From an uncultured Jannaschia sp. (GTDB lineage: Bacteria; Pseudomonadota; Alphaproteobacteria; Rhodobacterales; Rhodobacteraceae), in contig NZ_CANNEZ010000001.1 in assembly GCF_947503795.1 (NCBI RefSeq), positions 2,223,001 through 2,287,000 of the forward strand: a stretch of DNA of 64,000 nt, read 5' to 3'. The notes beneath the pieces were generated by a model. The model was not told the DNA's origin and made no database searches. It was given only the letters and a program-made list of their open reading frames with translations. The number at the start of each line of letters is the position of its first letter. Position 1 is the stretch's first letter. Made by a program: the position numbers and the translations under genes. Positions 3,964 through 18,911 of this stretch are shown here, in pieces.

Positions 3964-4014
3964 TCTTCATCTTGGTGGAAATATGCCGGGGTCCGGGGCA
4001 GCGCCCCGGCTCGC
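3964..4014 (-). repeat. Dispersed intergenic element, copy 2 (inverted)
   Basis: Read on the minus strand this is ggggcgctgccccggacccc followed by ggcatatttccaccaagatg. It is nearly identical to the copy at 3772-3811 over about 35 bases. The two copies face each other and could pair into a long cruciform or RNA stem enclosing about 150 bases. Confidence 0.7.
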
Positions 4015-15059: not shown

Positions 15060-15539
15060 TCAACCGTTGCGGCCGTTGCCGTTGCCGTTGCCGCCGCCGT
15101 TGCCGTTGCCGCCGCCATTGCCGCCGTCGTTTCCGCCACCATTGCCGCGGCCGTTTCCGCCGCCGCGCGCAGCGTTGCCTTCACGCTCCGAGCGGGCGGT
15201 TTCGCGGTCCGCACGCCGCTCCGCATTGCGCAGATGTTGCTCCAGCGCGTTCTCGATGCCCTTGAGACCCGGATGCGACGCCGCGGTCTCGCCGTCCTCG
15301 CCCTCGACCGTCGTCCGGCCGCTCAGCTTGTCATGGACGATCAGCAGCGATTCCGTGCCCCGCGTCAGCCGATACTCGGTCGAGGCGATCCGATCGCGGA
15401 TGCTGACCTCCTCGTAGCCCTCCTCGGCGGCGATCTCGACGACCTCCTCGCGGATGTCGGCGTCCTGCGCCTGCGCGACCGGGGCCAGAGCCGTGGCGGC
15501 AAGGGCAGCCAGCGCAAATCTGATGGGGTGGCGTGTCAT
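15060..15539 (-). CDS. Secreted PepSY-like protein with Gly/Asn-rich tail
   Basis: The 159-residue product starts with a signal peptide (MTRHPIRFALAALAATALAPVAQAQ). A domain of about 60 residues follows (REEVVEIAAEEGYEEVSI, then strands ending in LIVHDKLSGRTTVEGEDGE), whose helix-GY-strand-strand pattern resembles the PepSY_2-type domains of the two proteins encoded upstream. After a charged helix, the last 40 or so residues are Gly and Asn only, with a few Asp/Arg. It is the last of four minus-strand genes with the LuxR gene and two acidic-tail proteins. Role unknown; domain assignment is by pattern only. Confidence 0.7.
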   Translation of the reverse strand: MTRHPIRFALAALAATALAPVAQAQDADIREEVVEIAAEEGYEEVSIRDRIASTEYRLTRGTESLLIVHDKLSGRTTVEGEDGETAASHPGLKGIENALEQHLRNAERRADRETARSEREGNAARGGGNGRGNGGGNDGGNGGGNGNGGGNGNGNGRNG

Positions 15540-15655
15540 CTCGGAATCTCCCGTTTTTCGATTTCGCCGAAATTGATCCGCGTTCTGGACAAAATCATGG
15601 CCATTCGATGTCGGGCGCCAAGAACCGGCCGCACGGGTCGGCGCACCGCGAACGC

Positions 15656-16144
15656 TCAGGCGCGGTCTTCCATCATGTCCTCGACGAAGAGGCCGAGAAG
15701 CTGGGTGCGGCTGGACACGCCCGCCTTGCGGTAGACCGCCGCGCTCTGCGCCTTGATCGTGCCTTCGGACGTGCCCCGGAGACGGGCAATGTCGCCGAGC
15801 CCCTGTCCCTTGAGCGAAAACAGCGCCACGTCGCGCTCCGCCGGGGTCAGCCCCCAGGCGTCGAATCGCTCCTCCACCAGGTCCATGAAGGCCGAGGACG
15901 CCGCGTGCAGCCGACGCTCGGCCTCGCGGCGGCGCCGGTCCGCCTGCCGGATCGCCAGCGCGCCGAGGACCGAGCCAAGAAGCAGGCCGAGCGCGGCGCC
16001 GATCTCGATCAGCTCGCGCAGCCCCCAGGCCAGCGGCACCGTCCGCAAGCCCAGCACGCCGACCAGGATATCGTAAACGAACACGATCGCGCAGACAGCC
16101 TGCACGGCCACCAGCAGCGCCAGAGCCAGCCCGCGCGTCTTCAT
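15656..16144 (-). CDS. Membrane-anchored LuxR-type transcription regulator
   Basis: The 162-residue protein has two hydrophobic segments (about residues 5-28 and 38-65, separated by a short LRTVPLAWGLRELIE loop) followed by a cytoplasmic linker rich in Arg and a LuxR helix-turn-helix. The HTH is LTPAERDVALFSLKGQGLGDIARLRGTSEGTIKAQSAAVYRKAGV, near residues 100-145, with the usual T-x-x-E-x-x-V and G-T-I-K marks. It has no receiver or autoinducer domain, so the signal may be sensed through the membrane part. Neighbouring genes encode three secreted PepSY-like proteins; control of or by them is inference. Confidence 0.85.
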   Translation of the reverse strand: MKTRGLALALLVAVQAVCAIVFVYDILVGVLGLRTVPLAWGLRELIEIGAALGLLLGSVLGALAIRQADRRRREAERRLHAASSAFMDLVEERFDAWGLTPAERDVALFSLKGQGLGDIARLRGTSEGTIKAQSAAVYRKAGVSSRTQLLGLFVEDMMEDRA

Positions 16145-16171
16145 GCGACGCAGGTGTTCCCGTCGTCGCGA

Positions 16172-16609
16172 TCACTCATCGTTGTCGCCACCGCCGCCCG
16201 AGCCGGAGCCGGAATTGCTGCTGCCCGAGCCCGAGTTGCCGCTGCCGCCGTCATCATCGTCGTCGTCATCGTTGTCGTCGTCGTCATCATCGCGATCGTC
16301 GCGGTCATCCCTGCCGCGCCCCCGTCCGCGATCCCGGCGGTCGTCGTCGCTGTCGTCATCGGCGCGGGCGTAATCGCGCAGCACCTCGCCCGTGCGCGGA
16401 TTGAAGACGATCTCGCGGCGCTGTCCGTTGCCCCGCGCCTCGATGCGGACCCGCCCCAGAAGCGTGCGGCTGACCTCGATCCGGTCGAAGCCCTCGGCCT
16501 GCAACCGGCCGATCATGCCTGACGCCGTCTGCGCCTGCGCAGCCACGCCGAACGACAGGGCCCCGACGAGAAGCCCTGCCCGAAGAAGCCGCGAACACAT
16601 ACGTATCAT
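16172..16609 (-). CDS. Secreted PepSY-like protein with Asp/Arg and Gly/Ser tail
   Basis: The 145-residue protein opens with a signal peptide (MIRMCSRLLRAGLLVGALSFGVAAQAQ); a second Met at 16600 is an equally good start. The mature N-terminus, GMIGRLQAEGFDRIEVSRT through REIVFNPRTGEVLRDY, has the helix, G-F/Y turn, basic strand pair and T-G-E-V-L end typical of PepSY_2 domains. From about residue 85 the tail changes to Asp/Arg repeats, then a run of Asp broken by one Asn, then Gly/Ser/Asn. It ends 27 bases before the LuxR gene. Function unknown; the acidic tail could bind calcium or other cations. Confidence 0.72.
   Translation of the reverse strand: MIRMCSRLLRAGLLVGALSFGVAAQAQTASGMIGRLQAEGFDRIEVSRTLLGRVRIEARGNGQRREIVFNPRTGEVLRDYARADDDSDDDRRDRGRGRGRDDRDDRDDDDDDNDDDDDDDGGSGNSGSGSSNSGSGSGGGGDNDE
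16246..16350 (-). repeat. GAY trinucleotide tract coding for Asp-rich tail
   Basis: On the minus strand the sequence is mostly alternating GAC and GAT codons with some CGC/CGG codons, encoding the Asp/Arg part of the protein at 16172-16609. The codons are mixed rather than one pure triplet, which would slow slippage but still allow recombination between blocks. Confidence 0.7.
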
Positions 16610-16683
16610 CTCCTGCCCTCTTCGCGGGATGGAGGCGGGCGCGCCGCCCCCATCCCCGTTCCTAGTCCCGATCCGGACGCGGA

Positions 16684-16805
16684 TCAGTCGTCGTCGCTGT
16701 CATCGTCGTCGTCATCATCATCGTCGTCATCATCGTCATCGTCATCGTCATCATCATCATCGTCATCTTCGTCGTCGTCGTCATCATCGTCGTCATCGAA
16801 ATCGT
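16684..16805 (-). repeat. GAC/GAT codon tract coding for poly-Asp
   Basis: About 40 consecutive GAC or GAT codons on the minus strand, with one GAG and one AGC near the ends. The two codons are interspersed without a longer period. The tract is the densest low-complexity sequence in the window and a likely place for length differences between strains. Confidence 0.85.
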
Positions 16806-17112
16806 CGTCATCGAGGAAGTCCTCGTCGCGGCGGTCGATCTCGATCCCCTCGCGCCCCAGATACTCGTCCTCGGCGGCCTCCATCTCCTGCTTGAGGATC
16901 TCGCCGCTCTCGTTGTCGTAGATGACCTCGAGCTTCATGTCGCCGTCGACGGCTTCAACCTTCGTCTGGGTCGGACCGTTCTTGATCTCGATATACTCGA
17001 ACCCCTGCCCTTCGAGGTCGGCGATGATCTGCTCGTTGAAGGTCTGGGCCGAGGCGGGCAGGCCAAACATCAGACCGATGATACCGGCCAGCGAGGTGGG
17101 TTTGATGAACAT
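16684..17112 (-). CDS. Secreted PepSY-like protein with poly-aspartate tail
   Basis: The start at 17112 (MFIKPTSLAGIIGLMFGLPASAQ) gives a signal peptide; a longer frame to 17214 lacks one. Residues about 24-85 (FNEQIIADLEGQGFEYIEIKN, KVEAVDGDMKLEVIYDNESGEILKQEME) form a PepSY-like unit clearly related to that of the protein at 16172-16609. From about residue 100 the protein is almost pure aspartate to its end, roughly 45 residues with only a Phe, a Glu and a Ser. It is the first of the four-gene minus-strand set, 120 bases downstream of trpB. Function unknown. Confidence 0.75.
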   Translation of the reverse strand: MFIKPTSLAGIIGLMFGLPASAQTFNEQIIADLEGQGFEYIEIKNGPTQTKVEAVDGDMKLEVIYDNESGEILKQEMEAAEDEYLGREGIEIDRRDEDFLDDDDFDDDDDDDDDEDDDDDDDDDDDDDDDDDDDDDDDSDDD

Positions 17113-17232
17113 GTCGCGCTCCTGCGTCTGGTTGCAATGGAGCGAGGGTCGGCCGGCGATCCCGATCTGGCCATTCGACGGCGGTTTAGGCCCGCAATGC
17201 AGGACCTTGGTCACATGCGCATAACCCGTGGA

Positions 17233-18465
17233 TTAGAGGACGTCGCCCATGTCCCAGCCCAGGGCGCGGGCCACGGTGAAGATATCCTTGTCGCCCCGGC
17301 CGCACATGTTCATGCAGATCAGGTGATCGGCCGGCAGGTCGGGGGCGATCTTCATGACGTGGGCCAGCGCGTGGCTGGGCTCGAGCGCGGGGATGATCCC
17401 TTCCATCTCGCAGCAGAGCTGGAACGCCTCCAGCGCCTCGACATCGGTGATCGAGACGTATTCCGCCCGGCCGATGTCGTGCAGCCATGAATGCTCGGGG
17501 CCGATGCCCGGATAGTCGAGGCCCGCGCTGATCGAGTGACCCTCGAGGATCTGACCGTCGTCGTCCTGCAGCAGATAGGTCCGGTTGCCGTGGAGCACGC
17601 CAGGCCGCCCGCCGGTCAGGGACGCGCAATGCTCCATCCGGTCGTTGACGCCCTTGCCGCCGGCCTCGACCCCGATGATCGCGACCTCCTTGTCGTCGAG
17701 GAACGGGAAGAACAGGCCCATCGCGTTCGACCCGCCGCCGATGGCCGCGATGATCGTGTCGGGCAGACGGCCCTCGGCGGCCATCATCTGCTCGCGGGCT
17801 TCCTTGCCGATGATCGCCTGGAAGTCGCGGACCATGGCCGGATAGGGGTGCGGACCGGCGACGGTACCGATGCAGTAGAACGTATCGCCCACGTTGGTCA
17901 CCCAGTCGCGCAGCGCGTCGTTCATCGCGTCCTTGAGCGTGCCGCGACCGGAGGTGACGGGAATGACCTCGGCGCCCAGCAGCTTCATGCGGAAGACATT
18001 GGGGCTTTGGCGCTCGACGTCGTGGGCCCCCATGTAGACGACGCATTTCAGACCGAACTTGGCGCAGACCGTCGCGGTGGCCACGCCATGCTGGCCCGCG
18101 CCCGTTTCGGCGATGATGCGGGTCTTGCCCATGCGCCGGGCGAGGATGATCTGGCCCAGCACGTTGTTGATCTTGTGCGCGCCGGTGTGATTCAGCTCGT
18201 CGCGCTTGAGGTAAATCTTCGCGCCGCCCAACCGCTCGGTCAGACGCTCGGCGAAGTAGAGCGGAGAGGGACGGCCGACATAGTGGGTCCAGAGATCCTG
18301 CATCTCGGCCCAGAAACTGTCGTCGGTCTTGGCGAATTCGTATTGCCGCTCGAGCTCGAGGATCAGCGGCATCAGCGTCTCGGAGACGAACCGTCCGCCG
18401 AAATCGCCGAACCGTCCGTTCTCGTCGGGACCGGTCATGAAGCTGTTGAGACGATCGTCGGGCAT
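17233..18465 (-). CDS. trpB: Tryptophan synthase beta subunit
   Basis: This PLP enzyme joins indole and serine to give tryptophan. The 410 residues from the ATG at 18465 ([20 protein letters not shown]) contain the PLP lysine in [15 protein letters not shown], the catalytic Glu in [13 protein letters not shown], the phosphate-binding GGGSNAMG and the GRDKDIFTV-like [10 protein letters not shown] end. A gggggagcgacc ribosome site precedes this start, which is why the Met 9 codons upstream is not preferred. trpA is not adjacent, and trpF lies 3 kb away beyond rpsA on the other strand. An imperfect inverted repeat at 18551-18595 lies just upstream. Confidence 0.96.
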
Positions 18466-18911
18466 GGTCGCTCCCCCATCTGCGCGACGCACCGTCTAGC
18501 GAGGGCACGGGCGCGCGGCAACGGGCGAAGCGTCGCGCCGGGTTCCCTAGCGTCACCCGACATGCCGAGTGCACATAGGTAGATGTCGGGCGACGTAATG
18601 TGACGATCCTCCTCTTCGGCGCGGTTATGGCGCCGGCCGGCCGCTTCGCCCTGATCGCCTCTCCCGGCCTCGTCCTCACGGTCCCCGCCCCGGCCCGGAC
18701 CATCGCCGCCATGTTGCGCGCCCCCTTGCGGATCGGGCGCATTTCCCCTAACCCACGCGCGTCATCCGACAGCGCGATCCAAGGCGCGGCTTCCGGCCGC
18801 ATCCCACGCGCTTTCATCCGACCAACCCGTTTCGCCGAAGGCGGACATCAACCTAGACCGGCGGAGACAACCGCGCGGCCAGCAACAACCAGATAGGACA
18901 CCATCAGCCAC
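18466..18911. other. Divergent control region between trpB and rpsA
   Basis: These 446 bases hold no credible gene. The notable structure is the inverted repeat at 18551-18595. The rest should hold the rpsA promoter and leader. Ribosomal protein S1 leaders often carry autoregulatory structure, but I could not delimit one by eye. Confidence 0.6.
18551..18595. promoter_or_regulatory. Inverted repeat between trpB and rpsA
   Basis: The arms cgtcacccgacat (18551-18563) and atgtcgggcgacg (18583-18595) pair in 12 of 13 positions around a 19-base spacer. Arm spacing suits a dimeric DNA-binding protein as well as a hairpin. It lies 86 bases upstream of the trpB start and 317 upstream of rpsA, so trpB is the likelier target. 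The binding protein is unknown. Confidence 0.5.

Follow-up and report, generated by a model that had tools for sequence, protein, structure and literature searches.

A conserved Rhodobacteraceae operon that appears to join a membrane LuxR-type regulator to secreted poly-aspartate proteins, with a possible link to calcium

Periplasmic PepSY proteins recur beside sensory systems, and their function there is largely unclear. Vc1637 is a small secreted PepSY protein encoded in the dbfSR operon of Vibrio cholerae; that study did not look into the protein itself (PMC7768729). A review describes how UipA holds uranyl on a PepSY face of negative charge, and it also covers UzcRS with auxiliary regulators (PMC8963506). 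PepSY, DUF2874 and BLIP have been proposed as one superfamily of periplasmic and probably inhibitory proteins (PMC2954215). Here we describe a gene group in a 64-kb stretch of contig NZ_CANNEZ010000001.1 from an uncultured Jannaschia sp. (‘the window’; its positions are used for genes A, B, C and the LuxR-type regulator). Two genes for secreted PepSY-like proteins with acidic tails (A and B) and a gene for a membrane LuxR-type regulator make up an operon that appears to be common to Rhodobacteraceae, seems to control itself and possibly senses or handles calcium outside the cell. Like the DbfS/DbfR operon, this operon has a small secreted PepSY-type protein first and a membrane signalling protein last; DbfS/DbfR, however, uses a histidine kinase and an OmpR-type response regulator (PMC7768729), whereas here a single membrane protein carries its own LuxR-type helix-turn-helix (HTH) and the secreted proteins have poly-Asp tails.

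Conservation of the operon

The genes concerned are as follows.

16684..17112, minus strand: gene A, with signal peptide, PepSY-like domain and poly-Asp tail (142 amino acids)
16172..16609, minus strand: gene B, with signal peptide, PepSY-like domain and an Asp/Arg then Gly/Ser tail (145 amino acids)
15656..16144, minus strand: LuxR-type regulator, with two membrane helices, a short loop predicted to be periplasmic and a C-terminal HTH (162 amino acids)
15060..15539, minus strand: gene C, secreted and weakly PepSY-like, with a helix and a Gly/Asn tail; accessory (159 amino acids)

A sequence-only reading of the window had reported four adjacent minus-strand genes, three of them for secreted proteins of about 140-160 residues with tails of the compositions listed, and one for a LuxR HTH joined to two membrane helices without a receiver domain. 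These observations are confirmed: all four open frames lie where they were reported, and the regulator has an HTH match at residues 99-150 and no receiver match. The interpretation built on them is, as a whole, partly supported.

For the comparison with relatives, 121 loci were oriented from the LuxR gene (40 wider stretches, 80 genome contigs and the window); removal of four duplicates left 117, of which 114 had at least 1 kb of usable upstream sequence. Among these 114 loci, which were picked by LuxR similarity and many of which come from draft genomes, a PepSY-like gene in the B position ends no more than 250 nt upstream of LuxR in 103 (including one fused frame and one match below 40 bits), an A-like gene precedes B in 66, and 108 have some PepSY-like match. 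In 96 loci the LuxR match begins beyond base 4000, and 74 of these have trpB upstream in the same orientation. These counts support A, B and the membrane LuxR as a conserved operon, usually placed behind trpB. The four-gene order expected by the sequence-only reading thus holds for A-B-LuxR, with gene C outside the unit.

A panel of 100 genomes offers a more independent test than loci selected by LuxR. The regulator was found at E <1e-20 in 33 genomes; searching with the B model at E 0.01 picked out 28, all within those 33 (Fisher 5e-20), with no B match at that threshold in the 67 panel genomes lacking LuxR. One B match (G023) is marginal (0.0012), and LuxR occurs without B in G028, G034, G036, G038 (LuxR at a contig end) and G047. 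By sequence comparison, gene B is the most constant partner of LuxR. In one draft genome (L024:1003-1962), B and LuxR occupy a single open frame lacking the first membrane helix; this is probably a frameshift, the alternative being a natural fusion.

The operator

An unsupervised motif search of 81 regions from trpB to the first PepSY-like gene returned the palindrome CATAAACYNNRGTTTATG. The refined matrix exceeds 8 bits in 75 of the 81 regions and in 1.3% of 1620 mononucleotide shuffles (an in-sample comparison). The palindromic operator, GCMTAAACYNNRGTTTAKGC, stands ahead of the first gene, a median of 122 nt from the start codon (interquartile 105-138, n=41), and often has a second element at fixed phase: among 73 loci besides the window, 37 match GGTTTA at +34 and 43 match TAAACC at +52 in at least 5/6 positions, against no more than 9 at the other offsets scanned. 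Scores exceed 20 bits in 70 and 13 bits in 83 of the 115 loci scanned, and 13 bits in 85/117 when whole loci are scanned. In the window, the relevant features are these.

17218..17239, minus strand: operator dyad CCTCTAATCCACGGGTTATGCG, a degenerate copy that overlaps the trpB stop codon
17183..17188, minus strand: TAAACC, the second element of the operator (dyad offset +52), an exact 6/6 match
17233..18492, minus strand: trpB, the usual upstream neighbour, outside the circuit (PALP 4.2e-41; name assigned from sequence and context)

The window dyad scores 15.7 bits, the best in the 64 kb (next best 10.8); its +34 element matches at only 3/6 positions and is not conserved.

The site tracks the operon. 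Within the genus, when the interval from 25 nt before to 700 nt after the trpB stop is considered, a site of at least 15 bits is present in 7 of 10 genomes with the operon cassette and in 0 of 9 without it (Fisher 0.003); in G015 it lies farther on, before an EF-hand gene. Of the 14 LuxR loci located elsewhere than behind trpB, 4 also carry a site (L056, 20.4 bits; L062, 26.4; L073, 15.8; L060, 14.1), which thus follows the regulator rather than trpB; in the other ten, L064-L072 among them, no site exceeds 13 bits.

The operator was also used as a genome-wide probe. A model (R1) built from the sequences of 40 sites was tried on 28 chosen genomes, 18 with the cassette and 10 without, a first look that covered up to 150 candidates in many of them. 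Among the matches listed, R1 hit the cassette in 14 of the 18, while the 10 cassette-free genomes gave none in 7 and weak matches of no more than 12.2 bits in 3. A stricter screen of the family (248 genomes, 32 candidates scored per genome) found a match at E 0.03 in at least 41 genomes, with one site per matched genome among the matches listed, except for two in G059. LuxR lies within 3 kb of 30 of the 32 newly found sites; five sites are on contigs that match training loci in length and are taken as training contigs, and 25 of the remaining 27 have it, a set that may still include other assemblies of training species. At one exception (L231) a contig end cuts the locus, leaving a PepSY-like fragment and trpB. 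At the other (L236:2999-4956, genome G163), a strong operator lies upstream of a gene for a secreted Asp-rich protein of NGTDPVDPT and DDNGDKSGDDRGDK repeats, for which neither Pfam nor NCBIfam gave a match at the thresholds applied; LuxR is elsewhere in that genome, with its own weaker sites (16.2 and 18.5 bits). In genome-wide searches the operator thus appears to be almost uniquely tied to the cassette. The circuit between regulator and exported proteins that the sequence-only reading had proposed gains from this, in that one operator joins the regulator's operon and the exported acidic proteins both in the regions of the motif search and at the new sites.

Secreted proteins and regulator

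None of the three secreted proteins reaches the Pfam PepSY_2 cut-off of 24.3 bits (A 17.8, B 15.4, C 13.7), and by gathering cut-off none belongs to PepSY or PepSY_2 (PF03413, PF13670); we therefore call them ‘PepSY-like’ instead of filing them as members. The PepSY kinship seen by the sequence-only reading survives as sub-threshold PepSY_2 scores of 13.7-17.8 bits; of the relatives scanned, 15 of 37 for A and 3 of 47 for B match PepSY_2 at E 0.01 or better, the best at 5.5e-5. An AF2 model of A residues 21-87 has a confidence score (pLDDT) of 95.4. Relatedness of the three domains stands for A and B (profile-profile probability 98.3, E 1.7e-14) and is weak for C (probability 37, E 3.6e-4 against the A profile; best A-protein match 8e-8 in a phmmer search with C residues 1-112, signal peptide included). 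The B domain is the most conserved secreted part. B domains carry a net positive charge in 75 of 102 cases and B tails a net negative one in 98 of 102, whereas 60 of the 69 A domains are net negative. One A protein (L035:2229-3317) has two tandem PepSY-like domains ahead of its Asp tail.

The tails, counted after residue 84 (A), 83 (B) and 112 (C), differ in charge.

16687-16860, minus strand: codons 85-142 of gene A, the poly-Asp tail

The A tail has 42 Asp in 58 residues (net charge -43) and the B tail 26 Asp in 62 residues (net -19), with Gly/Ser at the end. The C tail is Gly/Asn with net charge +1 and therefore no polyanion, so the earlier suggestion of surface polyanions could apply to A and B but not to C. 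Among open frames of at least 60 codons in the window, Asp runs of six or more occur in two only, A and B. The Asp codons of the A tail are mixed (GAC/GAT = 24/18) and, across 133 tails with at least 15 Asp codons from the window and its relatives, adjacent Asp pairs use differing codons in 1332 of 2794 cases (1260 expected if independent); the tails are therefore not simple trinucleotide repeats. Their sequence and length vary widely among relatives, with a median length of 80 and 46% Asp in A tails (n=67), and of 67, 34% Asp and 37% Gly/Ser/Asn in B tails (n=104).

Both kinds of tail tend to end in two aspartates: terminal DD occurs in 39 of 64 A tails (22.3 expected, P 5e-7) and 62 of 100 B tails (24.6 expected, P 1.7e-22), where the expectation is taken from local DD frequency and the P values treat related rows as independent. 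Low-Asp B tails share this end (10 of 34, 1.05 expected). Where the first gene has no recognised A-type domain, it often still encodes a secreted acidic tail; 21 loci leave 480 nt or more from trpB to the first PepSY-like gene that was recognised, and 12 of them have an acidic or Asp/Gly-rich protein ending in DD (counted by eye). The LDD variant of the ssrA tag is protease-resistant, and because the DD ends resemble it, protection from C-terminal proteolysis is one possible reason for them.

Gene C behaves differently. Of 20 same-genus genomes, 5 have it, and B and LuxR are missing from two of those 5; there is one further, marginal match at the A gene of G039. Where inspected, it lies in the stretch downstream of trpB, and at L157 and L158 A, B and LuxR are absent. 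In all five C proteins (window:15060-15539, L034, L155, L157 and L158), the Gly/Asn tail carries Lys/Arg close to its end, a reversal of the terminal DD seen in A and B. On this comparison gene C is a weakly related accessory outside the core and, in the panel, genus-limited.

The regulator is LuxR-type by homology. Its LuxR/GerE HTH match (PF00196; 22.7 bits, E 7.6e-5) falls 0.8 bit short of the 23.5-bit cut-off, and a family profile searched against the PDB finds VraR chains at 3.8e-5 over their C-terminal DNA-binding part. Neither Pfam nor NCBIfam gave a receiver-domain match, and the protein does not qualify as a response regulator. Hydrophobic segments lie at about residues 5-24 and 44-66, the second followed by an arginine-rich stretch. 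Under the positive-inside rule of membrane topology, this stretch suggests that the HTH is inside and a loop of about 20 residues outside; both ends of the loop carry conserved acidic residues (D25 in 15/19, E44 in 16/18, E47 in 18/19). Elsewhere in Rhodobacteraceae, a second cassette encodes a short secreted PepSY-like protein, a cytochrome b561-like protein and a membrane LuxR paralogue (L064, L066, partly seen, L070, L072, L073 and L224:3129-4471; genes named by eye, with Pfam confirmation in L224 only), and in L224 it has the same operator. Since some LuxR paralogues accompany a PepSY-like and a cytochrome b561-like gene, PepSY-LuxR pairing may be the general theme, to which the poly-Asp tail would be a special addition.

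Interpretation and comparison with known systems

Several loci point to calcium. At three of them (L036, L049 and L218; three genomes, two genera), the A position is held by an EF-hand pair with an Asp tail. L036 is from Jannaschia aquimarina (L074 is a duplicate), and in L218 the EF-hand protein, with two canonical loops, is the only secreted companion, B not being found there. The L004/L036 fragment scores 27.3 bits with EF-hand_6, above the cut-off of 25, and the L049 fragment 25.2 with EF-hand_1, just short of 25.4; the longer L004 frame gave no EF-hand match at E 0.01. The second operator of G059 (L204:1500-2378), near-perfect and away from the cassette, lies about 110-125 nt ahead of the probable start codon of a gene for an RTX calcium-binding repeat protein (Pfam 8.2e-54). 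In G189 the operator is flanked on one side by a PepSY_2-cytochrome b561-LuxR operon and on the other by a gene of the Na/Ca-exchanger family (Pfam 3.2e-29); this gene also matches NCBIfam ChaA (9.9e-74) and the calcium/proton exchanger model TIGR00846 (1.8e-65), in both cases below the cut-off. The EF-hand swaps, RTX gene and exchanger gene thus lend some comparative support to calcium, within the cation role that the sequence-only reading had suggested for the tails.

Our best reading, which we would give an even chance, is that the operon forms an autoregulated circuit of the envelope that serves calcium or some other hard cation. LuxR, embedded in the membrane with its N-terminus and HTH inside and its loop outside, would bind the palindrome before gene A and control the operon encoding itself and the secreted acidic proteins. 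The A-position protein, whether PepSY-like, EF-hand or a signal peptide plus Asp-rich tail, and B would use their disordered acidic tails to bind this cation. With its usually net basic domain and acidic tail, B would be the most likely messenger: depending on whether its tail is occupied by cation, the domain would be freed for, or masked from, contact with the outer loop of LuxR. In a variant that fits the basic B domain, acidic B tail and acidic LuxR loop, cations would compete the tail off the B domain, which could then contact the loop. A fuller proposal, in which a secreted disordered poly-aspartate tail is the sensor of a one-component system, the PepSY-like domain relays to the membrane LuxR, and LuxR acts through the two-element operator on its own operon and in some species on other calcium-handling genes, is more speculative and we advance it only tentatively.

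A number of observations weigh against the best reading. No site above 13 bits is present in 32 of 117 loci, including the nine paralogue loci L064-L072, and none was found at the divergent cassettes of G004 and G013; G028 has LuxR with neither B nor an operator site. Among the matches listed, R1 has none in cassette genomes G000, G014, G035 and G050, and in G000 it did not report the window dyad, which is degenerate. Fold comparison gives a weak match to PepSY structures (helix plus four-stranded sheet, as in YpmB/BLIP), 17 of 102 B domains are net negative, and Gly/Ser/Asn exceed 40% in 43 of 104 B tails. The links to calcium are small in number and emerged post hoc, favouring calcium without proof; lanthanides, uranyl or iron are further ligands of EF-hands and poly-Asp.

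This last point leaves room for the same autoregulated circuit with a different signal, the polyanions buffering or scavenging iron, lanthanide, uranyl or magnesium. EF-hand and Asp ligands are not specific for calcium. UipA, a tandem-PepSY protein whose uranyl-binding face is negatively charged, does this for uranyl (PMC8963506). The additional operator-linked genes, for the RTX calcium-repeat protein and the exchanger-family protein, lean towards calcium, and we consider the other cations unlikely, if worth keeping in mind. We place at the same level the view that the tails serve as polyanions of the surface or matrix (in adhesion, mineral nucleation or hydration), that LuxR reads the membrane or redox state and that the PepSY-like proteins are only envelope cargo or protease inhibitors. 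It would account for the LuxR paralogues that accompany cytochrome b561, a membrane redox protein, and for the several loci whose first gene has a signal peptide and Asp-rich tail but no recognised domain; PepSY/BLIP-like proteins are, moreover, thought to be inhibitors (PMC2954215). Set against it, the B domain is the best conserved secreted part and was never found without LuxR in the 100 genomes, which suggests a role for B in the regulator's function.

That another regulator binds the palindrome and LuxR merely shares the operon seems improbable to us. The loci lacking a site would allow it, and the case for LuxR binding the palindrome comes from sequence; yet neither trpB nor the genus predicts a site as the cassette does, some LuxR loci remote from trpB have one too, and genome-wide the site is almost unique to the cassette. 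Least credible is that the low-complexity tails are near-neutral expansions on ordinary PepSY-like proteins. Their wide differences between relatives would agree with this, whereas the mixed Asp codons, the DD excess even in low-Asp B tails and the retention of an acidic tail with an EF-hand pair or an unrecognised domain speak against it.

The operon is a compact, widely conserved Rhodobacteraceae case with a regulator, a defined operator, candidate secreted ligands and natural replacements (the EF-hand pair and the domain-less tail), so that a messenger role for a PepSY-like protein becomes directly testable. It suggests a possible function for extreme Asp-rich exported proteins and a possible route into calcium sensing in Rhodobacteraceae. 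A literature search judged by titles and the starts of abstracts, with subscription papers mostly outside its reach, found no paper on an A-B-LuxR operon, and the pairing of a membrane LuxR with poly-Asp proteins is absent from Vc1637/dbfSR, UipA and the PepSY-BLIP superfamily as described. The best NCBIfam model for the regulator is the LIC13292 family transcriptional regulator (NF047608; residues 79-158), for which the search returned no paper; at 45.5 bits, far below the cut-off of 200, the regulator is not a member. ToxR/CadC-type regulators have a membrane-anchored DNA-binding domain and no phosphorelay. With its anchor, HTH and promoter operator, the LuxR protein shares this plan and is a candidate membrane one-component regulator that may work as they do, but unlike them it has a C-terminal LuxR/GerE-type HTH after two helices and only a short outer loop. 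With UipA/UzcRS, the operon shares an exported PepSY-type domain, negative charge and a (here putative) metal response; the charge of UipA lies on a folded PepSY face (PMC8963506), whereas here it lies mainly in a disordered tail.

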